Part shown: piece by piece, positions 1,401-31,797 of the stretch
How the letters are laid out: each line of letters begins with the position of its first letter
How positions within the stretch are numbered: position 1 is the stretch's first letter
Assembly: GCA_029834535.1 (NCBI GenBank)
Contig: JAQMWT010000669.1
Coordinates: 1-32,500 of the forward strand
DNA: 32,500 nt
Source of the DNA: Chrysophaeum taylorii
Lineage: Eukaryota; Sar; Pelagophyceae; Pelagomonadales; Pelagomonadaceae
Reading direction: 5' to 3'
Translations under genes and position numbers: made by a program
Notes under the pieces: model-generated
What the model saw: only the letters and a program-made list of their open reading frames with translations
Told to the model about the DNA's origin: nothing
Database searches by the model: none

Positions 1401-1559
1401 GAACTTGAGTTCGGTGTCTAAGGCAGGGGGAGGCGGTGCGTCGTCATCCTGGTGCGCAGCAGGGTCACTTGGAGGTGCATCCTCATCATCACGAGTAGCG
1501 AGAGTATCTTCGTAGGACGAAGATATATAGTTTAACGACATTTCGGTCAAGCAGTTGCT

Positions 1560-3442
1560 GGAAATAGACATCATAAAAGATTGTGCCAAAGACAAGGTAT
1601 CTGTGCTGCACGTGGTGGAAGCTTGGTCAACGGTCATGAAATTGGATACATAGGATTTCTTCGTCACGGCAGCAGTATGTTGGAAGGTAGGGTCCAACAT
1701 AAGGGATTTAATATCGGCGACGATGAGCGAAAGGTGCTTGTACAGAGTGCTGTACGTACCGGCAGGCAGAGCATTGCTGAGCATGTCACAGCAAAGGTCA
1801 TGGCGTAGAGACAAGAGGAAGGATTCCTGTTGTTTGGTGTGGTTGTTAGCACGAATCAACTCCGGTCGAGTGGGGTAGCGTAATTTCCCGTTGCGGGGGT
1901 CGAGTAAAATAATATTGGCGTACCCTCGGACGGTGGGCAATGGAGCATGCATGGAGTGGATTTTAGAGCCGAGTTTGCGGTCACTTCCACGAAGGTACCC
2001 TATATAGCGACTATGAGATAAGTGGTGATCTTCCAGAGCAAAATGAGAATCCTTGTAGTCGAAAGAGTTGTCGGTGGCCTTGTAAGGCAGCCAGGCATCA
2101 CAAGAGAGTATATGGACAAGAGCTTTTGTATGGCAGTGCCATAGGTGGCAGCGGAGCCAACTTGGGGAAGGGCTTGACTATCCACAAGTAACCCATAAAC
2201 GGCTCCAAATATATGGACCTGTCCCGGTCGCGGGGAATGTCGAAGCAGTGAACGCATACGTGCTTCCAAACGTCAATATAAGCATGATATTTGGTGGTGG
2301 CGTTCTCTATGGTGAGGTTGCCGTCAGATGGTGGCCACCAGTTAAGAAGTGGGAGTTGTGTGATGCTGATGAGGTTGTAAGTAGTAACCTGTGTGACGGT
2401 TGGTTAGTTTCGAAAACGGTTATGTAATAGGACACAGGAGTGGGTGAGTTAGTGTGTAAGCTGGCAAACAAGTTATAGAGGATTGTAAAAACCTTGACAT
2501 GTATAGGGTAGGTTGCATTGGGTAGCGGCTCCATAGAGGGGCGTTTAAAGCACAGCGGATGATAATTACACTCGGATTGAACAGAGTGAGTACGTTGCTC
2601 GTAAGCCTGTTGTGAGTGAAGGCGAAGCAGTAACATATTGAGGGATTCAAGGTCAGCCATAGTAAGCTAAACAGAACCTGTGCGAGAGTAAGATGCAAGC
2701 GTTTTAGGAACGGGGATATATGGAGGATCGGGAACACCCGGATCCAGTCTTTGGATACGTGTTTAGGTAGCCAAAGACGCTTGGGAATCGCTTGTAGATC
2801 ATCCACGATCTTTAGGAAGGGGCGTGGATGGAGGATAGGCCACGACAATAATTTAATTGGTCCAGCATAATACCTGCGTGCGATGCATATCCATCTTTCT
2901 CTAGATTGGTAGTCGCCACAGAGGTAGGTCGGGAACCTATCAACAACATCGACACAGTAAGCAAGTGTTGTATGGACAAGGTTGGCCACTGTGATGTGGT
3001 CTTGATGACAGTACTTATGCGGAGGCGCCATCTCAGCCAGTAGTACCAAGGGCTGGAGTAGCTTGATGACAGACAACATGCTGTCGAAAAGAGAATCGTC
3101 CAGCAGGCTGTGTAAGTCTTCTGTCTTATGCTGTTTTCGTAAGTTCCTGTTCGTGCAGGGAGGAGTGATCTCAATTGTATCACAATATAACGTGCGCCTT
3201 TCCTCTGGTGAAATTACGTGAAGATGATTAATAAAGGCGGGGAGAGATTCAAATAAGAATACAGTAGGGAAACGGTGGCGTAACATACGAACAAGCGTAT
3301 CATCAGACTCAACAACAACTTTTACATTGATATTTAAGCCTAAGTCATTAGTGGCTTGAGACAGGAACGCCGGAGTTGACAAACCAGAACAAAGTAACAT
3401 GACAGAGGGTTTGCGGGGATTAGACTCTTGTGAGAGAAACAC
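1560..3442 (-). pseudogene. Element C, C5-cytosine DNA methyltransferase domain (frameshifted)
   Basis: The family methylates carbon 5 of cytosine in DNA using S-adenosylmethionine. The first open stretch (3442-2420) holds, in order: motif I-like VMLLCSGLSTPAF (residues 14-26); motif II-like VVVESD; motif IV ITPPCTNRN with the catalytic cysteine at residue 96; motif VI-like LLAEMAPP (Glu 137, in place of ENV); and motif VIII QSRERWICIARR (residues 179-190). The reading then changes frame near 2660 and again near 2270 and 1950. Motifs IX and X appear at 1952 onward as RYPTRPELIRANNHT and LSNALPAGTYSTLYKHL. Between VIII and IX lies a region of about 300 residues, the position of the target-recognition domain in this family. 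Protease lies upstream (3458-4762) and integrase downstream, so it is part of the polyprotein. Which cytosine context it read cannot be told. Confidence 0.87.
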
Positions 3443-3457
3443 TGGGCGTGAGAGTAG

Positions 3458-4762
3458 TCAGGTTAATGGCTGCGTGTTTTGTTGAACAAACTTGTTCTGT
3501 TTCCGAAGATTGAGAACCAAAGGGCGAATCCACGGGCGATGTGGCAAAACTCTTTGGAGTAGGTAGTTGTACTGTGCCAGTAGATCCCTGTTTTCATGGT
3601 ATCGCTTGAGGGGAAATGCGAGGTAACGAAGTTCGAGTTGCTTGTCGCGAGCGATGTTGTAAGTGAGACAGGGGAGAGCAGGTAAATTAGCTGCAATGTA
3701 GTGCATGGGGATACGTACATCTTTGTCTATGCGGCTCGTGACAGCGCTGAGCTTTGGCTCAGCTCGATCATTGAACACAGTGATCAGGTTCGTCTGGTTC
3801 CACTCGAGCATGCTCAGGATAGCGAGAAGTCGGTCGTGCACTGGCTGAAGGCATAAAGCGAAGTCGATGTTAACATGGCTAACTCGTGGATGATCTGGTA
3901 GGGGAACAACAATGTTACGTGTTAACATCATGTGTGAGGCACGTTGTTGTCCAGTGCCTGTTTGAATAACAATCGGCGCGTATTTGGAGTCCAGTGGAAT
4001 AATGTGATTGGGTATTGCAAAATCGTAAGTGGACATCAATGAGATGGTAGCACAAGAGTCAAAATATAGAAAATAACAATGTGGAGGGACACTGTTTACC
4101 TTCATGTAGTTGGTGAGGAAGGCGTTTTCCGAATGTGGGTAAGTAGTGGAGAGGCTGGCTGTGAAGAAGTTTTCCAGCAATAGCAGATTCGTTGGAATAA
4201 TTATCGGTTGAACAGGTGGTGATGGTTCGTCAGCCTCATCAGCCATGCCGTGCTTTTCATCAAATGACGATAGCGAAGTATGATCGGCATCCCTTTTGGT
4301 TTCGGCTTGTGGTGGTAAGTTGAGGGCAGATTGGACCTGTGAAGATAGCGAGGACAATAACGCTGGTGGTAAAGCCGAGATGGCGGAAGCAGTAAAGAGG
4401 TTAGGCACAATATTGGAAGGATTACCCTGTGTGTTGGGGGGATTCTTCGTGTCTGTAGTAGGAGGAGTTGCCTTTGGGGTGGGAGCAGTAACAGCAGTAT
4501 GATGTTGAGGCTCCACGTAGTTTAACGATTTTTCGGTCGAGGATAGATGAACGTCTACATCAGAAATGATGCCTTCTGCAAACATGAGTTGTTCGTTTAT
4601 ACGAAGTAAGCTACTGTTGTCCTCAGTAGATGTCGTTGACAGAATGTCAGCTGATTGTAATAGAGTCTCAAATAACTTGTTTATATTCTGTTGTAGCTGA
4701 GCCGTGGTATCATTATCTGTCACATGCTTCGTAAGTTCACTACACTGTCGCAGGGTGTTCAA
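3458..4762 (-). CDS. Element C, gag-protease spacer and retroviral-type aspartic protease
   Basis: This open frame of 434 residues processes the polyprotein if active. Residues 1-85 match the helical spacer of element B (14674-14958). Residues 90-190 are a Pro/Thr/Ser-rich linker. The protease active-site loop is YFDSCATISLM (Asp 235), followed by a typical flap and C-terminal region. The family consensus is D-S/T-G-A-S/T; here glycine is replaced by cysteine, and element B has the same change (DTCAS). The frame ends 16 bases before the methyltransferase open stretch. The apparent start is the first ATG after the SINE insertion, so it is not the original start of the polyprotein. Confidence 0.75.
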   Translation of the reverse strand: MNTLRQCSELTKHVTDNDTTAQLQQNINKLFETLLQSADILSTTSTEDNSSLLRINEQLMFAEGIISDVDVHLSSTEKSLNYVEPQHHTAVTAPTPKATPPTTDTKNPPNTQGNPSNIVPNLFTASAISALPPALLSSLSSQVQSALNLPPQAETKRDADHTSLSSFDEKHGMADEADEPSPPVQPIIIPTNLLLLENFFTASLSTTYPHSENAFLTNYMKVNSVPPHCYFLYFDSCATISLMSTYDFAIPNHIIPLDSKYAPIVIQTGTGQQRASHMMLTRNIVVPLPDHPRVSHVNIDFALCLQPVHDRLLAILSMLEWNQTNLITVFNDRAEPKLSAVTSRIDKDVRIPMHYIAANLPALPCLTYNIARDKQLELRYLAFPLKRYHENRDLLAQYNYLLQRVLPHRPWIRPLVLNLRKQNKFVQQNTQPLT

Positions 4763-4776
4763 GGTGTGATTTGTTC

Positions 4777-4987
4777 TAAACTAACTAACTAACTAACTTC
4801 TGACCTCTCCCGAGCATGGGAGCCAGGCCGGACCGACAGGAGCCAGTCCGGAATCACGGGCCTGTAGACGAGGAGCGCCGAAAGGTCGGTCGGCGGAGGG
4901 TGACCATCAAGCTTGTCGCCATGCGACGAGGAGACCGCGATGTGACTGGCAACCAGCTCGTCGATAACCTTCCGTCTTCGCCCCCCG
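4777..4987 (-). mobile_element. SINE-like retroposon, copy 1 (5'-truncated), with 11-bp target duplication
   Basis: An insertion splits the gag-protease spacer of element C. It is flanked by exact 11-bp direct repeats GTGATTTGTTC (4766-4776 and 4988-4998). On the minus strand it ends in a GTTA/TTAG simple repeat. Long target duplications plus a short-repeat tail are the marks of target-primed reverse transcription, as used by LINEs and their SINE partners. It matches the copy at 10095-10448 almost base for base but lacks about 140 bp of that copy's 5' part, the truncation expected of this mechanism. A plus-strand open frame across it is shared with copy 2, but I do not consider it a gene. Confidence 0.85.
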
Positions 4988-4998
4988 GTGATTTGTTC

Positions 4999-7295: not shown

Positions 7296-7297
7296 CA

Positions 7298-7746
7298 GTG
7301 AGGACACGTCTAACATCTTAAATTAATTCGGGACGAACGAGATTGTATGACTCTTGGTCGTAAAGTCGTTCGAGATTATTACGAGCATCAACTGATAGAT
7401 GATGTGATGAATTGACGTGCCAAGTTTTAAGATGATCAGGCAAGGCATCTTCATCGGGTAAGTGTAGATCATTTACTTTTTCAGCTTCCCATTGAGCGAA
7501 GATGATATCAACTTCTTGTTCAAGAAGATGGTTATACTTCGGAGCATGCCGGGTGTAAGCTCCATATGAATCGAAGGAGAATAACGCGTCCACGTATGGA
7601 CTTGTCATATGCCTGCGAGGCACCTCAATTTGTAACCTCACCTTGGTTGAGTTGTCTTGGAAACGCAATCCAGCGTTGATTTTATCAACGAGGATTTGTT
7701 ATTGTTTGTAGATATCCGTAGTGGATATTGGTTTTTGTTTTGACGT
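7298..7746 (-). pseudogene. Element A, gag N-terminal fragment
   Basis: The fragment is nearly identical in protein to residues 1-145 of element B's gag (TSPYVDALF, DALPDHLKTWHVNSSH, ESYNLVRPEL). It is dead by three visible changes: the start ATG of B is ACG here (7744-7746), a TAA replaces a glutamate codon soon after, and a small indel puts a stop at 7318 after RPELI. Homology to B ends at 7298, exactly where the LTR of element C starts. Confidence 0.85.
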
Positions 7747-7939
7747 GGTTGTGGCCTATTAAAGAATAGGTTATACGATTGATAGACATATTCGACACAT
7801 AATAATGAAGGGTTTCTCGAGTGCGGGTTATATGTACAGTACGCTATTTTAAGCGTGGGCTTATTTACAAGACCAAACAAATCAACATGCTATTTAAAAA
7901 CAGGATGACTTGAGACTGAAGAATGGATTAATTCTCGAG

Positions 7940-8628
7940 CAGTCAGTCTTTTGTTGGGGAATAAGAGGAAAAACCCGTACAAGTTTCCGCGGCTTGTGTA
8001 GGAAAATTTTTAATTTTATTGGCTATGCGAGTGCATATGACCAGTGACCGACCCAACTCGGTCACAAACCGAATTAAAAGGTGGGCACATACCGTCACAC
8101 AACAAATATGTACAGTAGACCACCGCCAAACACACTGTCGCATTGTACTCGTGATCAGGCGTAAAATTTGATCACTCCATTTATACGTACAACACAGTTG
8201 GGCTGACACACCTACGCATCTGGGCCCATAACCTAGAGAGATTTGACCCTCTCCGGGTACATGGTCGAGACTGCGTGCAGTCGTAGGCGTGTACAGACCA
8301 TTCCGCTTGTCACATGCTACTACAAAAGGTAGGGACTTAAGCCCTAACTCCTTAAGGACATTGGGTCCCATAGAAGCGTTTACACTGACAACGAGGAACG
8401 AAGCCTCTGTTAATTAAAGAGAAAGCACCGTACCTGACGGTACGCACCTGGAGGCCTACTCCATGTTGGAAAAGAGCTTCAGACTGGGTTCTTCATAGTG
8501 ATGAATAAGTAATCGCGGAAGGGGGGTAAGGAAGGAAAGAGGGAAAGCCGTCTGACGGAGAGAAAACCCTCTTGTAGAGATAGGTGTGAAATGTTCCAGT
8601 GTCGCACACATAATAGTGTCGCTCGCTG
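7940..8628 (-). repeat. Element A 5' LTR
   Basis: This block is homologous over its length to element B's LTR (16561-17251), with scattered substitutions and small indels. Homology on the right stops at 8628-8630. To the right is element B's RT coding sequence (LYGICQSPALWNQTINGFF). The left border is an estimate: homology between A and B continues into the leader and gag, so only the CAG...CTG end pattern and the 692-bp length of C's LTR suggest 7940. No TG...CA ends fit the homology limit. Confidence 0.6.
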
Positions 8629-10094
8629 GAGAATCAAAGAAGCCGTTTATGGTTTGATTCCAAAGGGCGGGGCTCTGGCATATTCCATAGAGAAACTTAA
8701 GTAGCTTTTTCAGGATCGAGAAGGTAAATGCCTTGTGGCAGTTTAACACAGACATGAGAGTCGATGGGAGCTTGAACAAAAGCGTTAGGTACGTCAATAT
8801 GGTAGACGGGAAGTCGCAGATGAGCTGCTAGCGCCATAACACAACGGATGCCAGTAAGCTGTGCCATAGGGCTGAATGTGTGGAAAAAATCGGTGCCCAG
8901 AGAGGCTAAGAATCCTCGTAGGACCAGGTGTGCTTTATGCTTAATGTACTGACCAGCAGCATTGGTTTTTATACGTAGGACGAGGCGGGTGTTAATAGGC
9001 TTTGAGTTGACCATTGGCAGCGCTAGTTCAAAGCAGCCAAACTTAACAATATCAAAAATCTCTTTGGAGATGGCGGGGATATAAGCTTTGTGATCAGCGT
9101 CTGAAAGACCTTTGAGGCAGCTCAACTCATATTCATCAATTTTGATATCTTTGGCTTGAATCGTGTATTCGTCCGAACCAACAGTGCTGGGGTCATGAGC
9201 CGTCGTAAGATGGGTAATTGCGTAAGAAGCGACATTATCGTGAGTGTGAGCGTGATCGGGATCTTCGACGAGTTGAAGAACTAGAAGAGGAGCATCACCA
9301 AGGTGGGCCTCAATGTAATGCGATTGCACGGTGATATAGTCTTCGATGGCGGAGAGGTGAGGCTCGGAGGCACCATAAGAAGCGTCATTATGATCCAAAA
9401 TGGAGTGGGGTGTGAACAAAGCATAAGCATATTGAGCGGGAGGAACTTGAAAAGCGTGAGCATGTTCGGAAATGAGATGAACGAGAGCACGAAGAAGGTG
9501 AAAGTCTGCAAGGCTGAAGTCGTCGAAGAGATGAACAGGAGTGACATCCGGCAATGGATGGCTATGGGTCCTATGACACATAACTGAAGAGGACTGTGGG
9601 AGCGCTTGGTGAACATGGTGATGAAGGGATGGTGCAAATTCCCCCTCTGGAGGTATAGCCATCCGGTGGATGCCATGAGCAAGATGAAGGGAGTGGAGGG
9701 TGGGGTCGCAGAAAGTTATGTACTGCTTGGAGAGGTCATACTTGAAGTCGGCAAGCGCACCACCGGCTTGTTTATAGGCGGCAACAGTAGGGGAGGCAAT
9801 ACGAGTAAGAACATTATTGAGATTGGTTTTGCGACGAGGGTGAGGGTGACGAGGACCACGGGTGAGACGTAGGACATCATGGGAATAGAGAGACCGACAA
9901 GATGGTAAAAGTGGCAAAGTGTTTGAGGACACGTCCGACGTAGGTGTGGTGGCGGAAGTAGCGGGTGCAGCTGGAGCACATGCGGAAACGGGAGAGGGAG
10001 CATGGAGTGGACAAGAAGGAGTCCCCCTCTCGTGGTCAGTGTCGGTCGGCATAGCATTCCCCCTCTGCGCCGCATCATTGGGGGTGCTGTGAAC
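8629..10094 (-). pseudogene. Element B, linker and truncated copia reverse transcriptase
   Basis: RT copies the element's RNA into DNA. The minus-strand frame 10094-8697 starts with a Pro/His-rich linker of about 300 residues. It then shows copia RT: HKAYIPAISKEI, INTRLVLRIKTN, KHKAHLVLRGFLASLGTDFFHTFSP, and VYHIDVPNAFVQAPIDSHVCVKLPQGI, which contains the first catalytic aspartate. A one-base shift near 8710 moves the next motif, LLKFLYGICQSPALWNQTINGFF, into another frame, and the sequence then stops at element A's LTR. The YxDD box and RNase H are missing. The apparent ATG at 10118 lies inside the SINE and is an artefact of that insertion. Confidence 0.88.
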
Positions 10095-10448
10095 TAACTT
10101 CAGACCTCTCACAAGCATGGGAGCCAGGCCGGACCGACAGGAGCCAGTCCGGAATCACGGGCCTGTAGACGAGGAGCGCCGAAAGGTCGGTCGGCGGAGA
10201 GTGACCATCAAGCTTGTCGCCATGCGACGAGGAGACCGCGATGTGACTGACAACCAACTCGTCGATAACCTTCCGTCTTCGCCCCCCGGCCATACCCCGT
10301 CCCACTGCGAATGTTCCGGATGCCAACCGGCCCACCCGGGAGGCGAATAGGTGCCAACCTACGCCGGGAGGGCGGATGCCCTCGCAAGGCTCAGGATTCA
10401 TGAGGCACCGTCCTCCATCGCAACCGCAGTCGGCGATCAGGGTAAGGG
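10095..10448 (-). mobile_element. SINE-like retroposon, copy 2 (354 bp)
   Basis: This copy sits in the integrase-RT linker of element B. Imperfect flanking repeats GCTGTGAAC (10086-10094) and GCTGCGAAC (10449-10457) look like an aged target duplication. On the minus strand it starts with a head that includes GGTTGCGATGGAGGACGG, shared with copy 3, and ends in the GAAGTTAG tail shared with both other copies. Its 3' 200 bp are almost identical to copy 1. No clear RNA polymerase III A/B boxes were found, so its parent RNA (tRNA, 5S, 7SL or part of a LINE) is unknown. Confidence 0.78.
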
Positions 10449-11744
10449 GCTGCGAACAGAAAAGGGAATGTCGGTTGAAGGTGCGGGAGGTGGATGTTGT
10501 TCATGAGCAGGAGGTTTTTTAGAAATAAGATGAGGAAAGGTAGGTTTAGAAGAAACACGGACTTGGCCGTTCTCAGGATTAAGGACAACATCGGCTAAAT
10601 GATTAACATGGGGTGTTATTAAAAGGTTTATGACATTAGCACCACATAAGTAGATGTAAGGACGACATCGAGGCTCATATTTATGAAATTCGTTACGTTC
10701 CAAATGCAGATAACAAACAGAACCAAAAGGTTCGAGGTTGTCCTGTTGGGGAACATTACATTGGTCTAACAAAACTTGTTGGGGGCTTAGGACTTTATTG
10801 TAAATACGTTCGAGGGAAACGTTAGGGAGGAGATTATACGATTGGATAGCATGTACAACAGCCCACGGGTAGTGTGGTGCCGGATCTGTTAGGGGGTGAC
10901 CTTTACAGGACACATTAAGCATATGCCGGAGGCGTGTAGACGCGGCAGTGGCTATGTGACCAACAGCGGCTTCTACTTCATGATTAAAGACATGTAAGTA
11001 AGGGGGGAACGCGGACATATTAATACCATGTTCCACACGGAAGGGGGTTGTAACATGCGGAGATAAATAGGGTTTAAAGGAATCACAATATATTTGTGTT
11101 AGTTGTACATTAACATAAGTAGAGCAAAATTTGCGGACAAACTCAAGGGCGTTACAAAATTCGCTGGAATTAGTGCTACGACAAAAGTACACTAATAAAA
11201 ATTTAGAAATGAGACACTTAAAAACAATATGTCGAAAGGATTTCCATTCCGAGAGAACAGATACGTAACCACTGTCACATGCCCAGGCTTCACCAGGTTG
11301 AAACATTTTTTCGAAAGATGGTTGCTTGGTAAGGTGGTGTGGATGAGGGAAGCGTTGTTTAGGAATCGTACAGTCCGCACAGAACTTACGGTAGGGTACG
11401 TCAGATGGGTGATGTCCAGGACTGGCAATAACCTGAACAGCTTTGATAGCTTGAGAATCACTAGAATGGTGGATGTTGTGAAAATTGGTAGCTCGTTGTT
11501 GCGCATCTCGAAATGCGAGGGTGCCCTTGGCATGAACTTTCTTATCGAAGGGCGCATGCTTCTCATGGAGCTGTCTTGGTGTTATGAGAGGAATTTGTTT
11601 TTCTTTTGTCGGATATGATATATCTGCGGATGAGGTGTTAGAGAGGAAGACATGAGCTACTGAATCGAGATGAAAAGATGGAAGTTCGTGGTCAGAAGCA
11701 AGATTATCACAACATGAGAGTTTTTGATTGGAGATGTAGAACAT
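10437..11744 (-). CDS. Element B, copia-type integrase
   Basis: A single open frame of 435 residues inserts cDNA into the genome. The zinc-binding region is FHNIHH...CADC (His 89 and His 93, Cys 122 and Cys 125). The catalytic core shows Asp 157 (WACDSGYV), Asp 221 (YCDSFKPY) and a glutamate at 256 or 258 (NHEVEAAVGH), close to the D,D-35-E spacing. Downstream are copia features YPWAVVHAIQSYNLLPN and FGSVCYLHLE. The core is therefore intact. The frame is the same as that of the methyltransferase C-terminal half, from which it is separated by one stop at 11769, and its C-terminal end (SVRSPLP) reads into the SINE. The annotated ATG is only the first after that stop; the native protein would be released from the polyprotein. 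Confidence 0.9.
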   Translation of the reverse strand: MFYISNQKLSCCDNLASDHELPSFHLDSVAHVFLSNTSSADISYPTKEKQIPLITPRQLHEKHAPFDKKVHAKGTLAFRDAQQRATNFHNIHHSSDSQAIKAVQVIASPGHHPSDVPYRKFCADCTIPKQRFPHPHHLTKQPSFEKMFQPGEAWACDSGYVSVLSEWKSFRHIVFKCLISKFLLVYFCRSTNSSEFCNALEFVRKFCSTYVNVQLTQIYCDSFKPYLSPHVTTPFRVEHGINMSAFPPYLHVFNHEVEAAVGHIATAASTRLRHMLNVSCKGHPLTDPAPHYPWAVVHAIQSYNLLPNVSLERIYNKVLSPQQVLLDQCNVPQQDNLEPFGSVCYLHLERNEFHKYEPRCRPYIYLCGANVINLLITPHVNHLADVVLNPENGQVRVSSKPTFPHLISKKPPAHEQHPPPAPSTDIPFSVRSPLP

Positions 11745-11768
11745 TGTAATGGAACTATGGTGTAATAT

Positions 11769-12662
11769 TTAGGATGTATCTGTTGGGAATATATTTGTGA
11801 AGAAGGCTGACCTATAGTTTTTGGATAGAGAAGCATGATCAGGGTCAAACGATGGTGATAGCGTTAATTTACGCAAATCATAGACAAGCTGACACAAATG
11901 TTTATAAATTGTATGATATGTTCCAGTTGGAATAGCATTTGCGATGATATCACAGCATAGGTCAGGGGACAGAGACAAAAGAAAATTGATTTGGTGCGCT
12001 GTGAAGTTATTGGCGCGTGCCAATTCGCGAGTTGAGTAAGGTCGAATGCGATCGAGTCGTGGATCGTACACGAGTATATTCGCAAATCCACGAATGGTAG
12101 GAGTGGGAGTGTATATAGAATGAACTTTGGCACCCATCTTCCTATCGCTTGATGTAATAAAGCCCAGGTATCTGCTTTGGGACAGATGCATGTCACTTAA
12201 AGCAAACATTTTATCGATAAACTCGAGACGATTTTCCTGAGGGTAGAAAACGAAAGAACCGTGAAGTACCGGTGAAGTATAGGAAACCAGTGTTTGTACT
12301 AGGCGACGCGTGTCTTGATTTTCATTATTATGATGGTATGCTTGACAAAGCCAAAGAAAACCGGTAACAGGATCGAGAGAAGCAGTCTTATCGATTCCGG
12401 TGTCATGTGTGAGGAAGGTATAGGTTCCACCAAATGCATTTATATGTGCCTGGTATTTAGAAGAGGAGTTAGAAACTGCAATGTCTCCACCTGTGTGTCT
12501 TCCACCGGTGATGTAAATGATGGAGGAAGTATAAGATTTAGTTAAGAATAGCCTGTGAGATGGTTGGTTAGATTCGATCGTTTTAATACGAAAGGACACA
12601 GGTAATGTGATTGATTTTGGGAATAAGCGTCCCATAATATTATAGAGGAGCACGAAAAGCAT
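11769..12662 (-). CDS. Element B, DNA methyltransferase C-terminal half (motifs IX-X)
   Basis: These 297 residues continue the methyltransferase after a frameshift at about 12640-12662. Residues 1-190 belong to the variable region between motifs VIII and IX, where target recognition is placed in C5-methyltransferases. RPYSTRELARANNFT (207-221) corresponds to motif IX, and DIIANAIPTGTYHTIYKHL (238-256) to motif X, which in the family reads GN-A/S-V/I-P. The same peptides occur in element C around 1700-1900. This frame joins integrase directly except for a TAA at 11769, showing that the enzyme was encoded inside pol. Confidence 0.85.
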   Translation of the reverse strand: MLFVLLYNIMGRLFPKSITLPVSFRIKTIESNQPSHRLFLTKSYTSSIIYITGGRHTGGDIAVSNSSSKYQAHINAFGGTYTFLTHDTGIDKTASLDPVTGFLWLCQAYHHNNENQDTRRLVQTLVSYTSPVLHGSFVFYPQENRLEFIDKMFALSDMHLSQSRYLGFITSSDRKMGAKVHSIYTPTPTIRGFANILVYDPRLDRIRPYSTRELARANNFTAHQINFLLSLSPDLCCDIIANAIPTGTYHTIYKHLCQLVYDLRKLTLSPSFDPDHASLSKNYRSAFFTNIFPTDTS

Positions 12663-13626
12663 CTAGTTTACTAGGAGATCTCATACAAGCAAGGGGCTTT
12701 CTTGAATTAGTTAAGAATCCTAAGCGGAAGTTAGAAGTGCCCTCCGTGTCATATTGACTTGGATGTTCGACTGTTTTGTTTGAGTGTAGACGAAGAAACA
12801 ACATGGTTAAAGTTTCGAGTTCAGTAACTGTTAAGCGAACGGATCCTGTGCGACTGAAGCTATTATAAGTTTTTGGTGTAGACACGAATGGTATGTCAGG
12901 AAAAACCTGTGTCCAAGGTTCGTCGACTATTAACTTGCGACTGATGGAGTTAGCGTGATCTGCAATATCCAGGAAGGAAGTGACTCGTTTGTTAGGCCAG
13001 GAAAGCAAATCTAGATGGCCGGTATTATATTTGCGTGCAACAAGGATCCATCTTTCTCTGGCATGATAATCTCCACACATATAGCATGGAAATCGGTCAC
13101 ATATATCCACCGTATAGTGCATCGTAGAGAAGATGAGATTAGCAACTCGTATATGGTCTTCATACGATGCGGAGTGTGGTGGCGTCATTTCCATGAAAAG
13201 AACAAGCGGCTTTAAAAGCTCAAGTACACTTAGAGCACTTGGAAACAAGGAGTCGTCCATATCACGCTCGAAAGTTGAAATGGATCTCCCATTGATTATG
13301 TTGCGATTTGTGCATGGAGATGTCAGTTCCACTATATCAGTGTAATATCTTGCACGTTCAGTGTCCGATGCTCGATGTAGATATGTGAGAAACTTGGGTA
13401 GTGATGGGAAAACTTCGATGGAATTACCAAAACGTCTTCGTAGCATGTGCGTGAGATTTTCGTCGCTCTCAACCAGAACTTTGACGTTGATGTTGATTTG
13501 CAAATCATTAGAAGCGCAAGCCAGAAAGGCGGGAGTGGACATCCCGGAACAAAGTAGTGTTACAGTCGGTGTTCGTGAACTTGGAGAAGTAGTTACTGTA
13601 TGGAGTAAGCGTGTGGTAACCTTGCG
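12640..13626 (-). CDS. Element B, DNA methyltransferase N-terminal half (motifs I-VIII)
   Basis: Counting from the ATG at 13542, the frame shows VKVLVESDEN (motif II-like), ELTSPCTNRN with the catalytic cysteine at residue 77 (motif IV), PLVLFMEMTPPH with Glu 118 (motif VI-like, EMT in place of ENV) and GDYHARERWILVARK (motif VIII, residues 158-171). Motif I, TVTLLCSGMSTPAFL, begins upstream of that ATG, so the real domain starts near 13600, directly after the protease stop and in the same frame. The glycine-rich loop CSGMST departs from the common FxGxGG and is nearer to the DGIAT-type loop of DNMT3-like enzymes, but I do not assign a subfamily. Only a phylogeny would settle it. Confidence 0.87.
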   Translation of the reverse strand, partial: RKVTTRLLHTVTTSPSSRTPTVTLLCSGMSTPAFLACASNDLQININVKVLVESDENLTHMLRRRFGNSIEVFPSLPKFLTYLHRASDTERARYYTDIVELTSPCTNRNIINGRSISTFERDMDDSLFPSALSVLELLKPLVLFMEMTPPHSASYEDHIRVANLIFSTMHYTVDICDRFPCYMCGDYHARERWILVARKYNTGHLDLLSWPNKRVTSFLDIADHANSISRKLIVDEPWTQVFPDIPFVSTPKTYNSFSRTGSVRLTVTELETLTMLFLRLHSNKTVEHPSQYDTEGTSNFRLGFLTNSRKPLACMRSPSKLDAFRAPL

Positions 13627-14595
13627 TCATACAGGAGGTGAGAAGTGCTTGCGTATATAAGGCAGCTGCGAATGCATCGACTCCAATATGGTTTTGAGCC
13701 ATGGTACGTAAATTGCGCGTTCAATAAGGTTGGAATATAGCTTAAGCATTTCGCGTTGTTCGTTAAAAACACTTAGTATGAACTGTAATGAGCGAAGTTC
13801 CATTTTTCGAGCCTTCGCTTGTTGTAGCGAAAAAAATGGGAGAGTAGGCAACAAATTGTTTAATATGAACAAAGTGATCTTGGCGTTGTCTTCAATTTTA
13901 CTTTGGATAGATGATTGTCCTTTAAATGCAATCCCATAAAGATGTATACCAAGTTTATCTTCTCCCCATTGAGTCATGTTGATGATGTGCAGATCGGGAT
14001 CGTTATGGTCGTTTTGCTTGGGTAGGAAAAGTGCAACATCTAGCTTTACATATCCCACGTTCGGATGCTTTGGGAGAGCGGGAATGACGGTTCTTATAAT
14101 CATGGCATGTGTGATACTTTGAGTATCCGTAGCAGTCTGGATAGCGGGTGACAAGGACTCGGGTAGTTTAACGATATGTATTCGACCAGCGTAACGTTTA
14201 AAATTAATTACATGTTGAGAGGCACACGTGTCAGCATATCCTGGCGTAGTCATTGGCGGCAAATTGTACTCATTGTACAGTTTAAGCATTGTTGCATAAC
14301 AGGCATGTGTCGAGCTTTGGCCAAACACGTACTGTGTCATGAAACTTTGCGTTTGTTCGGAAGGCACAACGACGAGTGTAAAACCATTGTTTAGTTTTGG
14401 TAGCAACACGGGGGGATCTGTACCATCCTCATTATCTTCGTTGGGTTGATTATTGGGGAGCTCGGAGTGCGAAGAAGTTTCCCGAGCTTGACGACGAACG
14501 ATAGCATTCTGGGCTTTAGCATTTATGTGCTGCAGTAGCGGCTGAGGAATGTTATCGATTTCATCATCTTTGATCGATAGAAGAGTATGAAACAT
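13627..14595 (-). CDS. Element B, retroviral-type aspartic protease
   Basis: This open stretch of 322 residues lies in the same frame as gag upstream and methyltransferase downstream. The active-site loop is YADTCASQHVIN (Asp 122), matching the copia protease pattern D-S/T-G-A-S-x-H except that the glycine is cysteine. The region before it (residues 1-75) is an Asn/Asp/Pro-rich linker. The C-terminal part aligns with element C (LRSLQFILSVFNEQREMLKLYS against LRYLAFPLKRYHENRDLLAQYN). The protein ends in a TGA at 13627 and coding resumes at once. The aspartic protease would cut Gag, methyltransferase, integrase and RT apart. Confidence 0.8.
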   Translation of the reverse strand: MFHTLLSIKDDEIDNIPQPLLQHINAKAQNAIVRRQARETSSHSELPNNQPNEDNEDGTDPPVLLPKLNNGFTLVVVPSEQTQSFMTQYVFGQSSTHACYATMLKLYNEYNLPPMTTPGYADTCASQHVINFKRYAGRIHIVKLPESLSPAIQTATDTQSITHAMIIRTVIPALPKHPNVGYVKLDVALFLPKQNDHNDPDLHIINMTQWGEDKLGIHLYGIAFKGQSSIQSKIEDNAKITLFILNNLLPTLPFFSLQQAKARKMELRSLQFILSVFNEQREMLKLYSNLIERAIYVPWLKTILESMHSQLPYIRKHFSPPV

Positions 14596-14673
14596 TTTTT
14601 CTGTTTCAGCAGTCCCCCTCTGCTCCGCATCACTGGGGGGCGCTGCAGGAGCAGAAGTTTCAACTTGATACTT

Positions 14674-14958
14674 TTATTCTATACCATGAGATTCGTTATC
14701 GGCTCCTAAGAGGTTCGATATGGTATTGGACATAGTATCAACTCGTGATAAGTATAGATGAACTTGAGTAGCTTCTTCAGGATCTAAAGACTGTGTCGAA
14801 GCTTGAGAGGCGGTTGTCCAAAGGGTGCTAAGTAAGCTCTTCATCTCCCCCTGTACCATTTTATAATCGGTGGAAGGATTAGGATTCGCTTCCTGTAATT
14901 TACCAAACAGGTGGCGAAGACGATCAACTTGATAAGTAGCCCGGTCCATAAGAGACAT
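14674..14958 (-). CDS. Element B, gag C-terminal / spacer segment
   Basis: These 94 residues lie in the same frame as gag and protease, separated from them by stops at 15076 and 14674. They are predicted helical, with leucine-rich stretches (VDRLRHLFGKL, MKSLLSTLW, LYLSRVDTMSNTISNLL). They align with the first 85 residues of element C's protease frame. Coding-like sequence also fills the space between the stop at 15076 and this ATG (a Ser/Arg/Asn-rich stretch ending RNSRSNMSLMD). It has no known catalytic motif and is probably a structural spacer or the end of Gag. It is named only by position and homology. Confidence 0.6.
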   Translation of the reverse strand: MSLMDRATYQVDRLRHLFGKLQEANPNPSTDYKMVQGEMKSLLSTLWTTASQASTQSLDPEEATQVHLYLSRVDTMSNTISNLLGADNESHGIE

Positions 14959-15075
14959 GTTAGAGCGCGAGTTGCGGTTAGAGGAGTGTGAGTAGACAGG
15001 ACGGTCGAAACTGGTGCCTTTAACGTTATAATTTGAAGGTGGACGATAGTAAGACGTGTCACGAGGTGAAATTGT

Positions 15076-16368
15076 CTATGCTTTATCTTTTGCATTACGA
15101 AGCTTACGAGCATTAAAGCCAGACTGTCCAGCCGCAGTAGCTAACAACGAGTAAGCATTGTTTAGAGAGTCGTGGGATTTATGAATAGTATCCATCAATA
15201 AAACCTTAGGTTGCTTGGTAGCGGTAGTACCAGAGATGTATGGAATCCATGATGCGGGTTTATCCAAGCGTCGGTTAGATGAAAATGTTGTTTCATTATA
15301 TATCTTTAACAAGAAGTCCAATAACGGACGAACGTCGTTAGGATCAACTTGCTTTAAAACTTCAGGATCGTGAGTCGAGTTGTTCCCAGAGCGTGTCTCG
15401 TAGAGTTTACACCATTCTAATAAAGACTGAGAGTAGCGCTCGTGATCAGAGGGATTAGCATATAGACGATAGATCTCCTCGTGAGCTTTGAGTGTGATTA
15501 TGGAATCATTAAATTGGATTGATGCTTCGTCATTATTTAATTGCTTTGCCTGAGTTTGGAAAGCAAGGAGTTGTTCGACAAATACATGAGCATACCAATT
15601 GACATTTAAGGACATTCGATTAAACTGAGATTTAAGCTCAGTGACATACGTACATGGCACTGTCTCATAGTAATGGTAAGCTAAAAGCATTACTGCACGT
15701 AGTTTATTAGGATGTGGAGTAAGTGCACAAATCTTTTGTAATTGAGGCCACATGGCGAGGGCAGGGCGTTCTTGCGATTCTAGATTGAAGAAGGTGTGCA
15801 GGAAACCGGCGTAAGTTTCGCAATGTTTGATCCAATCGGCATTAGAGAGACCTGTAAAGGACATGTTAGTTAGAGATGAGTCATACACAATTGATTTGTG
15901 GAATCGTGTATCTAATAAAGTGAGAACACGCTTAACATCATCATTTAATTCGGGACGAACAAGATTGTATGACTCTTGAAAGAACAGTCGTTCGAGATTA
16001 TTACGAACATCGACTGATAGTTGATGTGAAGAATTAACGTGCCAAGTTTTAAGATGATCAGGTAAGGCATCTTCATTAGGTAATTGTAATTCGTTAGCCT
16101 TTTCAGCTTTCCATCGAGCGAAAATGATATCAACTTCGTGTTCAAGAAGTTGGCTGTACTCCGGAGCATTCCGGGTGTAAGCGTCATACGAAGCGAAGCA
16201 GAACAACGCGTCCACGTATGGACTTGTCATATGTATGCGAAGCACTTCAATTTGGAGGCTTACTTTGGTTGAGTTGTCTTGGAAGCGCAATCCAGTTGTG
16301 AGTTTATCAACAAGGATTTGTTCCTGTTTGTAAATATCCGTGGTGGATATTGGTTTTGGTTTTGACAT
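15076..16368 (-). CDS. Element B, gag-like protein
   Basis: An intact open frame of 430 residues lies directly after the LTR and leader. It has no standard zinc knuckle. The sequence is helical and acidic/basic mixed, with conserved blocks shared with elements A and C (DALPDHLKTWHVNSS, NVNWYAHVFVEQLLAF, ASWIPYISGT). Position, size and context make it Gag, the particle protein. The ATG at 16366-16368 is chosen because homology to C begins near it and because A has ACG at the same place. It ends in TAG, but coding continues in frame to the spacer and protease, so either readthrough or decay separates gag from pol. Confidence 0.8.
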   Translation of the reverse strand: MSKPKPISTTDIYKQEQILVDKLTTGLRFQDNSTKVSLQIEVLRIHMTSPYVDALFCFASYDAYTRNAPEYSQLLEHEVDIIFARWKAEKANELQLPNEDALPDHLKTWHVNSSHQLSVDVRNNLERLFFQESYNLVRPELNDDVKRVLTLLDTRFHKSIVYDSSLTNMSFTGLSNADWIKHCETYAGFLHTFFNLESQERPALAMWPQLQKICALTPHPNKLRAVMLLAYHYYETVPCTYVTELKSQFNRMSLNVNWYAHVFVEQLLAFQTQAKQLNNDEASIQFNDSIITLKAHEEIYRLYANPSDHERYSQSLLEWCKLYETRSGNNSTHDPEVLKQVDPNDVRPLLDFLLKIYNETTFSSNRRLDKPASWIPYISGTTATKQPKVLLMDTIHKSHDSLNNAYSLLATAAGQSGFNARKLRNAKDKA

Positions 16369-16560
16369 AGTCGTGACCTAAGGAAAGTAGGTTATAGGAA
16401 GGATTAAACAGGTTGACATGTTTGAATGAAGGGTTTCTAACATGTAGAGGAATATGTACAGTTCGATATTTTTAAGCGTGAGCATATATACAAGACCAAA
16501 CAAAGCAACATGCCATTTAAACATGATGATTTGAGACTGAAGAATGGATTAATTCTCGAG

Positions 16561-17251
16561 CAGTCAGTCTTTTGTTGGGGAATGGAAGAAAAAAACCGTA
16601 CAAGTTTCCGCAGCTTGTGCATGAAAAATTTTAATTTTATTGGCTATGCGAGTGCATATGACCAGTGGCCGACCCAACTCGGTCACAAACCAAATCAACT
16701 GGTGGTCAAATACCGTCACACAACAGATATGTACAGTAGACTACCGCCAAACACATTGTCGCGTTGTACTCGTGATCAGGCGTAAACTGATCACTCCATT
16801 ATACGCACAACACAGTTGGGCTGACACACCTACGCATCTGGGCCCATAACCTGGAGAGATTTGACCCTCTCCGGGTACATGGTAGAGACTGCGTGCAGTC
16901 TTAGGCGTGTACAGACCATTCCGCTTGTCAGATGCTACTACATAAGGTAGGGATTTAGGCCCTAGCTCCTTAAGGACATTAGGTCCCATAGAAGCGTTCA
17001 CACTGACAATGAGGAATGAAGCCTCCATTAATTCAACAGACAACTCCATACCTGACGGTACGCACCTGGATGTCCACTCCTTGTTGGAAGTGAACTGCAG
17101 ATCTAATTCTTCATAATCTGAGATATAAGGGCGGACGGGGTAAGGAAGGAAAGAGGGAAAGCCGTCTGACGGAGAGAAAACCCTCTTGTGGAGATAGGTG
17201 TGAGAGGAGTGAAAAGTTCCAGTGTCGTACACATAATAGTGTAGCTCTCTG
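16561..17251 (-). repeat. Element B 5' LTR (left border approximate)
   Basis: This block is homologous to the LTR of A (7940-8628). The right border is set where the two copies stop matching, just after CTCTCTGG; in transcription direction the LTR begins CAGAGAGCTACAC. The left border near 16561 is inferred from a CAG...CTG pattern and the 692-bp length of C's LTR. The leader between it and gag (16369-16560) is AT-rich. Promoter and polyadenylation signals must lie here, but I could not pick out a convincing TATA box. An open frame across this LTR is shared with A but shows mostly amino-acid-changing differences, so it is not a gene. Confidence 0.65.
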
Positions 17252-17261
17252 GACCACCACG

Positions 17262-18171: not shown

Positions 18172-18570
18172 CCCTAACCCCTGCGATCGCTAACCGTTGG
18201 TTGCGATGGAGGACGGCGCCTAACACGCTTGCTCCCTGCGGCGGCCCCGGCCGTCCCGGAGTGAGACGGTGCCTGCTCGCCTCCCGGGCTGGCCGGTTAG
18301 CACCCGGAAAGTCCGCGCTGGGATGGGGTTCGCTCGGTTGGGCAGAACGCGACGGACAGGTTGATTGTTCGTGGACCAACACGTCCGCGGCCTGCGACGC
18401 TTTTGCACGACCTCGCACAAGACCGCGCGCAGTGGCGGTCCACCATCAACAAGTCCGTCCTCGTCCCTCGCCTCTGCCCCAACTGCGTGAATTTCCTCTG
18501 TGATTCCGTACCGGCTCCTGCCGGTCCGGCCTGGCTCCCATGCTCGGGAGATGTCTGAAGTTAGTTAGTT
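18172..18570 (+). mobile_element. SINE-like retroposon, copy 3 (about 399 bp)
   Basis: The head (GGTTGCGATGGAGGACGG) and GCCTCCCGGG..GGCCGGTT match copy 2. The last 70 bases, ending GAAGTTAGTTAG, match both other copies. The middle is different, so this is another subfamily or a recombinant. It sits in element D between LTR and gag. I could not find a secure target duplication, so the outer limits are approximate. Confidence 0.7.
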
Positions 18571-18728
18571 ACCTATGGGCCCGCGCTAACACCGTTGCGT
18601 TCACGACCTTGAGTGGCAGAGTCGCCGATGAGCAGGCTCGACGCTCGGCGAGACGCGTAAGCGCTCCAACACACCTTCACGCGCTGCCTCCGCCAGCGCT
18701 CTCTCTCTCGCTGCATCACAGCACCGAC

Positions 18729-18864
18729 ACACGACGCGCTGCTACGCAGCCAACACCTCCACACACGACGCGCTGCCACGCAGCCAACACCTCAACACAC
18801 GACGCGCTGCCACGCAGCCGCCTCATCAACACACGACGCGCTGCTACGCAGCCACCTCCTCAAC
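18729..18864. repeat. 34-bp tandem repeat, four units, just before gag of D
   Basis: The core ACGACGCGCTG recurs at 18731, 18765, 18799 and 18833, a strict 34-bp spacing. Each unit carries a short inverted pair around GCGCTGCTACGCAGC. The array ends at the gag ATG (18865), so it forms the 5' leader of D's RNA and could be a packaging or translation element. Confidence 0.85.
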
Positions 18865-19953
18865 ATGTCAGACGCCCACGACGTCACCCCCACTCCTGCT
18901 GCCGACGCGACGCCCGACCCGCTCATGAACTTCACTGATTTCTTGCATCTCTGGCGCGCCGACCACGACTTCAATCCCACCACAGACAAGGCCACCAACG
19001 ACCGCGCCTTCCGCCACTATCGCGTCCGACTCGAGAGCATGGTTCCCGGCATCCAGTGCATCACGCGCCCGCAGGCCTGTCCCGCAACGAGTCGTCGCTC
19101 TGACACCGAGAAAGCAGCGGCGAAGTTCCTCGCGCGCGTGCTCGGCCAGACGGTCCGCGGCGACGCGCTTGAGGTCATCTCCGAAATAGACGACGGGGCC
19201 GACAAATGGCGCGCGCTCGAACGCTTCATCGGTCTAACGTCCACGGCCGTGGCCAAGCATGAGGCCCGTGCGAAACTGCGCGCGCTGTCCTGGGCCTCAT
19301 CTCGCTCCGCCACGCTCTTTACCACCAATGTCCGCCGCTACCGCCAGATTCTTGGCGACGCCTGCGATGAGGAAGTTGCCGCGGCCCTCTGCGACGCGAT
19401 CGATCCCGACAATGGGGGTCCACCGCAGCTTTTTCTACTTCACCAGATGTGGGTCGATAGACTATATGTTCGCGGCGAAGAGCCCGACATCCCCGCGATG
19501 CTCGAGACACTTGAGGCCACTGCGGCCGCCCGCCGTCTCGGCAAGGCTTCGATCTACTGCACTCCCTTGCCTTCCACGGCCACCGAGCGCACCATGGCGG
19601 CTTCGCAGTCTCCGACGCTCAACACCCCCTCAACTTCCGCGCTGCCGGGTCAGCCGTCCCTCTTCATGCCCACACCGTGCAACGACCCTTTTCTCGTTCA
19701 CCCGTCCGCGGGTCCAAACGCCGACGTTGTCTTCGACACCATGACACCTTGCCTTGCCCTTATGTGCGGGGCCACACAGGTGCCTTTCCCGGATACTACC
19801 CCGCCGCTCGCACTCGCCCATCGTCGCTTCTTCCTGGACTGCGCCGCTCAAGTCCACGCCACGCGCGACAACTCTTTGTTCCATTCGGCGTGGCGCGGAC
19901 CGCCTGCGAACACGAAGGACCAACCACTCACGCTTCTTGCCGGGGGGGGTTAA
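18865..19953 (+). CDS. Element D, gag and N-terminal part of copia protease
   Basis: This open frame has 362 residues. Residues 15-250 are an alpha-helical Gag-like region (FTDFLHLWRADHDF, then AKFLARVLGQTVRGDALEVIS). Near the C-terminus is the copia protease active-site loop RRFFLDCAAQVHATRDNSLF (Asp about 328), corresponding to LDSGAS-x-HAT in the family; glycine is replaced by alanine and serine by cysteine. The frame stops inside a run of eight G (19942-19949), and the following protease part continues in another frame. A one-base change in that run, or a programmed shift there, would explain the break. No zinc knuckle was seen. Confidence 0.82.
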   Translation: MSDAHDVTPTPAADATPDPLMNFTDFLHLWRADHDFNPTTDKATNDRAFRHYRVRLESMVPGIQCITRPQACPATSRRSDTEKAAAKFLARVLGQTVRGDALEVISEIDDGADKWRALERFIGLTSTAVAKHEARAKLRALSWASSRSATLFTTNVRRYRQILGDACDEEVAAALCDAIDPDNGGPPQLFLLHQMWVDRLYVRGEEPDIPAMLETLEATAAARRLGKASIYCTPLPSTATERTMAASQSPTLNTPSTSALPGQPSLFMPTPCNDPFLVHPSAGPNADVVFDTMTPCLALMCGATQVPFPDTTPPLALAHRRFFLDCAAQVHATRDNSLFHSAWRGPPANTKDQPLTLLAGGG

Positions 19954-21745: not shown

Positions 21746-21750
21746 TTCCT

Positions 21751-21966
21751 AGTGACGCCATACTTCTCCCTCGAGAGTGGCGTTTTTTGCTATCATAATT
21801 CGACACTCCATCCTCAAGTTGGGAGGCTTGGTGAACGTGAGCAAGTAGTGTGGCGAGCATAACCGACCCCGAATCCGTGTTGGCCTCGTTCAGCGAGGTC
21901 TAGGGCGAGTCGGTGAGTACCCCCTTTGTCACCCTAGGGTCGGGAGTGTTTTTCTGTGCCGACATA
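21751..21966 (+). repeat. Element G 5' LTR, right part
   Basis: This continues the LTR from AGTGACG after element D and matches the 3' LTR to its end (TGCCGACATA, 3' copy TGCCGCCATA). Differences from the 3' copy are mostly transitions. Confidence 0.92.
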
Positions 21967-21968
21967 CG

Positions 21969-21986
21969 TGGTGGAGGCTACGAGAC
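21969..21986 (+). other. Putative primer-binding site of element G
   Basis: TGGTGGAGGCTACGAGAC begins two bases after the 5' LTR. TGG at this position is complementary to the CCA end of tRNAs. The same CGTGGTGG follows the inverted LTR of G2. The tRNA it pairs with cannot be named without the host tRNA set. Confidence 0.6.
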
Positions 21987-22341
21987 TGTGCGACTATATC
22001 GGTCGCCGACGAACGAGTGCCCCGTACGAACTGTATTACGCGGTCCGAATTTACGTGCCCTGATCAAGCACGCGGAATTCCAGCGGACCGACTTGCGTTG
22101 AAGAGTATACGCGGAGTTTTGTTTCGTTCGCACGTCCCGATAGACGACGAACACGCGCGCGAGTTGGAAATCGCAGCGCATTCACCCGGGATTGATTTTG
22201 GTATAGCTGAACGGCGGAAGCTGTTGGCGAGTGGGATCGCTACCCACACGGCATTTTGGATTGCCAGGCGGACAATAACTCCGCGAGTGCTGTTTTGACT
22301 GCGACGGATCACGTCATTGTCAACGACGTGCATCGCTTTGA
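21987..22341 (+). other. Leader of element G
   Basis: About 355 bases lie between primer site and gag. A short open frame (22017-22298) shows no recognisable domain and is out of frame with gag. Packaging signals would be expected here, but none can be identified by eye. Confidence 0.4.
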
Positions 22342-27926: not shown

Positions 27927-27935
27927 AGCAACTGC

Positions 27936-31695: not shown

Positions 31696-31797
31696 CGCCA
31701 CACACACCCCTCCTTTTAGCAGTCGACCTTTAAAGACAAACAGACAGACAAACAAACAGAAAAACATCTCCTTTTTAGAAGTTAGGACAAGTGCAGG

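Follow-up and report, generated by a model that had tools for sequence, protein, structure and literature searches.

Introduction

Retrotransposons that encode a C5-cytosine DNA methyltransferase (DNMT) were described in 2018, as long interspersed nuclear elements (LINE) and DIRS elements in Symbiodinium and a Gypsy in Klebsormidium, according to the relevant passages of that report (PMC5890265). Here we describe copia elements with a comparable domain in the pelagophyte Chrysophaeum taylorii. The stretch analyzed, hereafter the window, comprises the first 32,500 nucleotides of contig JAQMWT010000669.1. Element B of the window has a C5-methyltransferase-like domain between protease and integrase, and similar domains are found in a second window element, C, and in a third copia family, D. 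We consider it probable, with considerable room for doubt, that this domain is a permanent component of pol in B, C and D (gag, protease, methyltransferase, integrase, reverse transcriptase, in this order), that B and C express it by bypass of a UGA codon, and that it acts on the element's own new cDNA in the particle.

Among the described systems, KnitGypsy-Dnmt3 of Klebsormidium nitens is also a C5-DNMT within the Pol polyprotein of a long terminal repeat (LTR) retrotransposon, intronless and under purifying selection, as the passages cited have it (PMC5890265). It is a Dnmt3-related domain in a Gypsy element of a charophyte, whereas B, C and D are copia by their RVT_2 reverse transcriptase and so fall outside a family defined by Gypsy Pol with a Dnmt3-clade DNMT; their domain lies between protease and integrase, and in B and C it is not recognized by Pfam. 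By element type, KnitGypsy has a closer counterpart in a gypsy family of the window than in B, C and D. SymbioDIRS-Dnmt3 and SymbioLINE-Dnmt resemble the present families in being multicopy, retrotransposon-encoded C5-DNMTs of an alga and differ in being DIRS and LINE elements, and the Copia elements of Symbiodinium are said in the same passages to lack a DNMT domain (PMC5890265). An essay from 2019 names Ty3/Gypsy and DIRS in the part cited (PMC6338049). One clause of a 2025 paper places DNMT3 in 'LTR Copia and DIRS'; the part cited describes no element, host or order, and the source given there concerns Gypsy and DIRS (PMC12344493), so that the clause may be a slip or refer to an undescribed case. 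A sequence-only reading of the window had pointed to captures in dinoflagellates and charophyte algae; the precedent exists (PMC5890265), and the present lineage, a pelagophyte, is neither of these. Among the papers listed from the open-licence PMC literature, at the level of titles and abstract openings, we found no copia DNMT with the order protease, methyltransferase, integrase, reverse transcriptase, and none in any pelagophyte.

The stop codon before the domain has a parallel in Tca2 of Candida albicans, which we take to be a Ty1/copia element. Tca2 has an in-frame UGA between gag and pol that needs to be bypassed, and no DNMT is mentioned in the passages cited (PMC2194720), whereas the stop of B and C comes after the protease, directly before the methyltransferase. 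The genome paper of C. taylorii gives 71 Mbp in 702 contigs, and its main text, as far as cited here, does not contain 'transpos' or 'retrotransposon' (PMC10366177). The genome searched here comprises 70.8 Mb in 697 contigs.

Results

Methyltransferase motifs between protease and integrase

We take the names of the C5-methyltransferase motifs, and the binding of S-adenosylmethionine by motif I, to be as generally used. The features of element B, with the open reading frames (ORFs) that carry them, are:

8697-16377, minus strand: element B, a broken copia copy (ORFs and Pfam)
15076-16377, minus strand: gag-like ORF (assigned by position; no Pfam match)
13627-14673, minus strand: gag-protease ORF (from the ORF list; no Pfam match)
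14218-14238, minus strand: protease-like YADTCAS (motif by eye)
13627-13629, minus strand: conserved in-frame TGA, followed by C, at the protease/methyltransferase boundary; candidate site of stop-codon bypass
11769-13626, minus strand: C5-cytosine-methyltransferase-like domain (ORFs; profile alignment with Dnmt2 and family D; in other copies a single open frame spans the two halves)
12640-13626 and 11769-12662, minus strand: methyltransferase ORFs, the halves being offset by a frameshift in the window copy
13522-13557, minus strand: motif I-like LLCSGMSTPAFL, aligned with motif I of Dnmt2
within 13456-13473, minus strand: VESD
13300-13323, minus strand: motif IV-like TSPCTNRN, which contains the catalytic-loop Pro-Cys and aligns with SPPCQ of Dnmt2
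13177-13200, minus strand: motif VI-like LFMEMTPP, with the Glu of ENV, the Asn and Val being replaced
13030-13062, minus strand: motif VIII-like ARERWILVARK, aligned with NDRPRYF of Dnmt2
12003-12047, minus strand: motif IX-like IRPYSTRELARANNF (profile alignment of the C-terminal half)
11904-11951, minus strand: motif X-like DIIANAIPTGTYHTIY, including DIIANAIP (profile alignment of the C-terminal half)
10437-11768, minus strand: integrase ORF (D, D and E motifs by eye; Pfam SH3_retrovirus and rve, both below cut-off)
8697-10154, minus strand: reverse transcriptase, RVT_2 (Pfam, 5e-17), cut off near 8630

The two methyltransferase ORFs lie on the minus strand where the sequence-only reading had placed them, with SPCTNRN, EMT, RERW and the IX/X blocks in the frames of protease and integrase. 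The first (12640-13626) continues the frame of the protease ORF, from which only the TGA separates it, and the second (11769-12662) is in the frame of the integrase ORF, with a stop between them. Element C was claimed in the same reading to have this arrangement, and it does show the same motifs in the same order, with a core about 50% identical to that of B:

2420-3457, minus strand: element C, methyltransferase-like N-terminal half, directly after a TGA at 3458-3460
1077-2177, minus strand: element C, ORF with the methyltransferase-like C-terminal half (IX-like 1842-1883, X-like 1740-1784)

Motifs I, IV (Pro-Cys), VI (Glu), VIII (R-x-R), IX and X thus follow one another in B and C in the order shared by Dnmt2 and the other C5-methyltransferases of PF00145. 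The neighbouring residues differ: T replaces Q in motif IV (PCT for PCQ), and in motif VI the NV of ENV is replaced by MT, giving EMT, or EMA among the copies. B and C further differ from the known enzymes in matching no curated hidden Markov model (HMM) and in having about 300 residues between motifs VIII and IX. DNA target recognition usually resides between these two motifs. Among the copies read, motif I is present in 22/22 of B and 27/27 of C, copies that had been chosen by motif I. The PC of motif IV is found in 22/22 and 26/27, the exception in C (L031) having a deletion there. All 22 and all 27 have EM.PP in motif VI, and R-x-R of motif VIII is kept in 22/22 and 25/27.

Relation to C5-methyltransferases

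As a reference for profile comparison we used Dnmt2, the sole DNMT family with a deep profile, which comprised 60 of the 120 listed proteins. In hhalign, the B/C core aligned with Dnmt2 over 234 columns (score 27.5), and motifs I, IV, VI and VIII fell in register. The score of the N-terminal half (27.47) was reached by 0/100 column shuffles, with a thin margin (maximum 27.4), and by 0/220 in a larger set (maximum 25.6). Against family D this half scored 27.4, reached by 0/100 (maximum 26.1) and 1/220 shuffles (maximum 28.0). The C-terminal half, tested separately, scored 27.3 against D (0/100 shuffles, maximum 22.0) and 23.3 against motifs IX and X of Dnmt2 (0/100, maximum 21.5). The number of Dnmt2-conserved residues common to B and C in the alignment was not above that of shuffles, 28/100 of which reach it, and the unguided alignment is not used as evidence.

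Searches with a single B copy found no methyltransferase in the PDB (one row, a ribosomal protein, E 2.2), no homologue among the 8000 candidates scored from a set of 5.8 billion proteins, and none in viral contigs. For the methyltransferase region of family D, likewise, no homologue was found in the protein set and no methyltransferase was shown in the PDB. AlphaFold2 with B and C rows only gave a mean predicted local distance difference test (pLDDT) score of 40.4, too low for that model to be of use. With 24 homologues of the host DNMT2 added, rows that presuppose homology, pLDDT rose to 64.3 and the predicted template modelling score (pTM) was 0.64, with the expected order of strands and helices. 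The PDB matches listed for this homologue-aided model are by title C5-methyltransferases in 49/50 cases and an adenine methyltransferase in one, and are not independent of the added rows; the model speaks only for compatibility with the class I methyltransferase fold.

Family D provides the link to recognized enzymes. A search of the genome with PF00145 gave 57 places, 32 of which are in or beside a family D match; among the other 25 are two host genes, and two that were fetched are D copies. In copy L053 (2597-8455), the D pol frame is open for 1952 codons and contains a protease-like DGGAS (by eye), DNA_methylase (1.1e-7; 32.1 bits vs a cut-off of 22), rve (0.0061, below cut-off) and RVT_2 (1.6e-38). 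The methyltransferase slot is the same as in B, between protease and integrase, and the match to TIGR00675 dcm (2.7e-8) is under the curated cut-off. The motifs of D are more canonical, with PCQ in 7/7 stretches read and ENV in 5/7 (not found in L057 and L059). In BLASTP of B against D the integrase is the only significant region (E 3e-8 for a B copy). D has no stop before the methyltransferase; in L053 its pol frame overlaps that of gag, where a TGATG marks the gag stop. Collectively, the identification of the B and C domain as C5-methyltransferase type is supported by the profiles and family D, and the domain is, as judged from its sequence, a C5-methyltransferase-like family outside the recognition of Pfam and NCBIfam.

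A family trait under purifying selection

The domain occurs at no fewer than 122 (B), 117 (C) and 78 (D) places in the genome; these are lower bounds, the candidates at first look numbering 1079, 1207 and 772. For B, a listed protease precedes 65 of the 122 methyltransferase places at no more than 3 kb on the same strand, and 54 of these 65 pairs are separated by exactly one codon (3 nt). Among the matches listed, 57/122 methyltransferase rows have no listed protease and 51/118 protease rows no listed methyltransferase, which is not evidence of absence; likewise, 66/122 methyltransferase rows have no listed integrase within 5 kb, and 32/80 integrase rows longer than 900 nt no listed methyltransferase. 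In 42 protease-integrase pairs of B (from 54/118 and 48/101 rows, respectively), the distance is never below 1289 nt and is 1850-1876 nt in 23. Intact frames are found as well. Copies L004 and L005 are open over both methyltransferase halves into the integrase (824 and 822 aa within the fetched stretch), C copy L065 has the methyltransferase motifs, rve, SH3 and RVT_2 in a single frame of 1691 aa, and in B copy L064 a single frame of 1464 aa runs from the methyltransferase motifs through rve and SH3 into the beginning of RVT_2. When three RVT_2 loci lacking a listed methyltransferase were fetched, all proved to be C copies with the domain; scoring covered 150 of the 1670 RVT_2 candidates, and copia free of the domain may still exist.

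The ratio of nonsynonymous to synonymous substitution rates (dN/dS) in the catalytic core of B (190 codons, 20 copies) has a median of 0.053 and a ratio of sums of 0.057, values biased downward because the copies were the best protein matches. In C (189 codons, 27 copies), the median is 0.130 and the ratio of sums 0.308. Distant relatives compared with B gave dN 0.023 and dS 1.04 (L064) and dN 0.094 and dS 1.97 (L062), and the C-terminal part of the methyltransferase has a dN/dS of 0.074 (8 copies). For D, the ratio is 0.11, 0.16 and 0.15 in the three pairs whose dS does not exceed 0.86; of the other three, one has a dS of 1.81 and two are saturated. Neither neighbouring domain was used as a yardstick. 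The integrase gave a ratio of 0.619 in 3 copies, probably with a frameshift, and the protease a median ratio of 0.086 and a ratio of sums of 0.575 in 16 copies, with median dN undefined, probably spoiled by indels.

A C5-DNMT-type domain thus stands in the coding region of these retrotransposons and is conserved by selection across copies. The sequence-only reading had held the domain to be a family trait and not a chance fusion, and had proposed to look for the same order elsewhere in the genome. That order was found in copies of B, C and D, and together with the copy numbers, the spacing of the 42 pairs and the Pfam-positive D it bears the claim out: a C5-methyltransferase-type domain between protease and integrase is supported, at sequence level, as a family trait of these copia elements.

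A conserved UGA before the domain

An in-frame TGA directly 5' of the methyltransferase frame is present in 49/53 rows, i.e., 47/51 distinct B and C copies (L001 and L021 are the window copies; L025, L033 and L063, in which the search motif was unmatched, were left out). Of the four others, three have an upstream frameshift, and in C-family copy L049 GGA takes the place of TGA and joins protease and methyltransferase in one frame. The stop context is TGA-CGC in B (one TGA-CAC) and TGA-CTA in C or, in 7 rows, TGA followed by A. Because the stop is common to B and C despite hardly similar flanks, it is a conserved feature and not damage. A UGA stop is leaky when C comes next, most of all in UGA-CUA. 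A conserved in-frame stop between two conserved polyprotein frames, as found here, is the pattern expected of readthrough and suggests stop-codon bypass at the UGA. For Tca2, the UGA flanks alone were insufficient for readthrough in yeast, according to the passages cited (PMC2194720).

Two other explanations of the UGA were rejected. As a sense codon it should be favoured over other stops inside the listed B matches, and these hold 20 TGA, 25 TAA and 9 TAG. Reinitiation (TGA then ATG) as the general mechanism is found in only 2/53 rows.

CpG ratios and C-to-T differences

The observed/expected CpG ratio was 0.89-1.04 in the copia stretches measured, 1.22 in gypsy, and 1.23 and 1.50 in two GC-rich host stretches. 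C-to-T differences among the B loci L001-L020 stand out at CCG (0.201 per compared site, the next context having 0.142), which is not seen in C or D; these figures are uncorrected for shared descent.

A gypsy family and the host enzymes

The window holds a further element with a methyltransferase domain, a gypsy element on the plus strand at 21746-31697 with 92% repeats at both ends:

25446-27926, plus strand: gypsy ORF with C5-methyltransferase domain (Pfam DNA_methylase 7.4e-5; 22.8 bits vs a cut-off of 22)
26508-26543, plus strand: motif I-like
within 26748-26771, plus strand: SPPC
27927-29030, plus strand: RVT_1, downstream of the methyltransferase ORF
29397-31445, plus strand: integrase, downstream of the methyltransferase ORF

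Its domain aligns with Dnmt2 at an hhalign probability of 95.9% over 79 columns, and the family has at least 129 genome places, with open frames up to 3067 aa. By their sequences, then, DNMT-type domains are present in the copia as well as the gypsy elements of a single alga.

Two host enzymes were found. DNMT2 (L052, 522-1601) is identical to CTAYLR_008533 and matches PDB 1g55 at 3.9e-39. A DNMT5-like gene (L051, 3968-9901) has DNA_methylase and SNF2 in one open frame and matches PDB 7r76 at 3.7e-129; the molecule name of 7r76 is 'DNA repair protein Rad8', and we take it to be Dnmt5 of Cryptococcus. No other host DNMT was identified among the 36/57 PF00145 places examined. The passages cited report DNMT5 with SNF2 in algae, and DNMT5a in pelagophytes (PMC12344493, PMC9998398).

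State of element B in the window

The order protease, integrase, reverse transcriptase with RVT_2 assigns B to Ty1/copia, with rve below cut-off and the protease assigned by eye; the integrase ORF matches SH3_retrovirus at 1.8e-4 and rve at 0.022, neither reaching the curated cut-off. The window copy is damaged by stops, one frameshift between the methyltransferase halves, and a reverse transcriptase that ends near 8630. At this break, sequence resembling B's own 5' end starts. A repeat of about 1.33-1.35 kb (86%) pairs 15919-17253 with 7297-8630, each the 5' end of a B-like copy and separated by 8.6 kb, and the downstream 5' end adjoining the break suggests a nested insertion or a recombinant. 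As a check for LTRs, this repeat joins the 5' ends of two copies, and B's own 3' end is missing. No repeat is seen in the stretches fetched for copies L064 and L065, the former of which ends short of the expected B 5' end.

A further repeat of up to 198 nt is 97% alike in elements B and C at different element positions (10092-10289 and 4791-4988), with a third partial copy, inverted, at 18500-18571. A GC-rich ORF on the plus strand (18661-19953), with no Pfam match, has tandem 34-bp repeats (18693-18896) at its start.

Discussion

Building on the domain as recognized by profile, its position, its copy number, the purifying selection and the conserved UGA, we infer bypass of the UGA, packaging, enzyme activity and the substrate. 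The proposal of the sequence-only reading, that the element could methylate its own cDNA or the genome of the host, is likewise conjectural. In B and C, most ribosomes would halt at the UGA after the protease and yield gag-protease, and a minority would pass it and yield the polyprotein through methyltransferase and integrase to reverse transcriptase. The methyltransferase would thereby enter the particle with integrase, reverse transcriptase and RNA. Its likeliest action there would be methylation of the element's new cDNA, or of the cDNA/RNA hybrid, prior to integration, and the methylated new copy would then resemble host DNA or be pre-marked. A precedent for activity comes from the SymbioDIRS DNMT domains, for which the passages cited report de novo CG methylation in yeast (PMC5890265).

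Several results weigh against this proposal. Single sequences of B and C matched no Pfam or NCBIfam model and reached no curated HMM cut-off, that of PF00145 included. The Pfam DNA_methylase check suggested in the sequence-only reading thus gave no significant match for them, and profiles and family D carry the identification instead. A B+C profile of 15 sequences found no methyltransferase in the PDB, its three rows all being uL16 (best E 0.15). The probabilities given by hhalign itself are low, 5.0% (Dnmt2) and 4.2% (D) for the N-terminal half and 15.7% (D) and 3.5% (Dnmt2) for the C-terminal half, which is why the shuffles carry the argument. Because motif IV reads PCT and not PCQ, and motif VI EMT or EMA and not ENV, the chemistry may be altered or lost. 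The copia stretches measured have CpG ratios close to 1 and so bear no mutational trace of heavy CpG methylation. C-to-T differences among copies are only slightly more frequent at CpG than at other C in B and C, with no excess in D. Downstream of the UGA, five correctly oriented stretches showed no conspicuous RNA structure, and the sampling of the B copies flatters their dN/dS. The SymbioLINE and KnitGypsy DNMTs were inactive in the same yeast study, a result called 'inconclusive' by its authors in the passages cited (PMC5890265). The target may be another sequence context, RNA or a hybrid; alternatively, the enzyme may have little or no activity.

The alternative that survives best, though we think it unlikely, is that the domain of B and C keeps the fold and no longer methylates, having been a DNMT once and now serving to bind nucleic acid, assemble the particle or space the polyprotein. 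The replaced residues beside the catalytic Cys and Glu and the drift of the sequence past HMM recognition would fit such a role. However, Pro-Cys, the Glu (EM in all 49 copies) and R-x-R are kept, selection on the B core is strong, and D retains PCQ in 7/7 and ENV in 5/7 stretches. We likewise regard as unlikely a version in which a stramenopile copia clade has a permanent pol C5-methyltransferase, UGA bypass and changed catalytic surroundings (PCT, EMT), and acts in the particle on element RNA or RNA/cDNA hybrid and not on CpG DNA, the gypsy elements having taken up a DNMT separately, upstream of the reverse transcriptase.

Slightly less likely again is an enzyme that acts, like Dnmt2, on RNA (element RNA or the primer tRNA) and not on DNA. 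The roughly 300 unassigned residues between motifs VIII and IX, the usual place of DNA target recognition, speak against it, as does the match of D, albeit sub-cut-off, to the DNA methyltransferase model dcm. In its favour are the CpG ratios and the working alignment with Dnmt2, though this was the only DNMT family with a deep profile, and RNA methylation was raised for SymbioLINE-Dnmt in the passages cited (PMC5890265).

Action in trans on host chromatin, which would reshape the host methylome in the element's favour, seems to us quite improbable. The copies are numerous (at least 122, 117, 78 and 129 places for B, C, D and gypsy), and since the non-element DNMTs identified are DNMT5-like and DNMT2 only, a de novo enzyme would be useful; placement in the pol polyprotein nevertheless points to action in the particle, and the host census covers 36/57 PF00145 places. 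That the domain is no C5-methyltransferase at all, and a lineage-specific insert with motifs alike by chance, is very improbable: it would agree with the lack of single-sequence Pfam or NCBIfam matches for B and C, of a PDB match for the B copy beyond a chance-level row and of any among the 8000 protein-set candidates scored, and with a Dnmt2 residue-identity count reached by 28/100 shuffles, but the two halves, each tested by itself, align with both Dnmt2 and D and do so in order, and the D domain, which holds the same position in a related copia pol, passes the Pfam cut-off.

Methylation of new cDNA in the particle remains the reading we prefer. The families described here extend the short list of described retrotransposons bearing a cytosine methyltransferase by the copia superfamily and by a third lineage of hosts, and two LTR superfamilies with such domains occur in a single 71-Mb genome. 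This repetition across families, together with strong selection, argues that capture of a methyltransferase helps LTR retroelements. The small genome makes the gain that a retroelement draws from a methyltransferase testable, and the conserved UGA offers a tangible way into the question of how these polyproteins are produced. The domain suggests that the elements methylate nucleic acid during their own life cycle.

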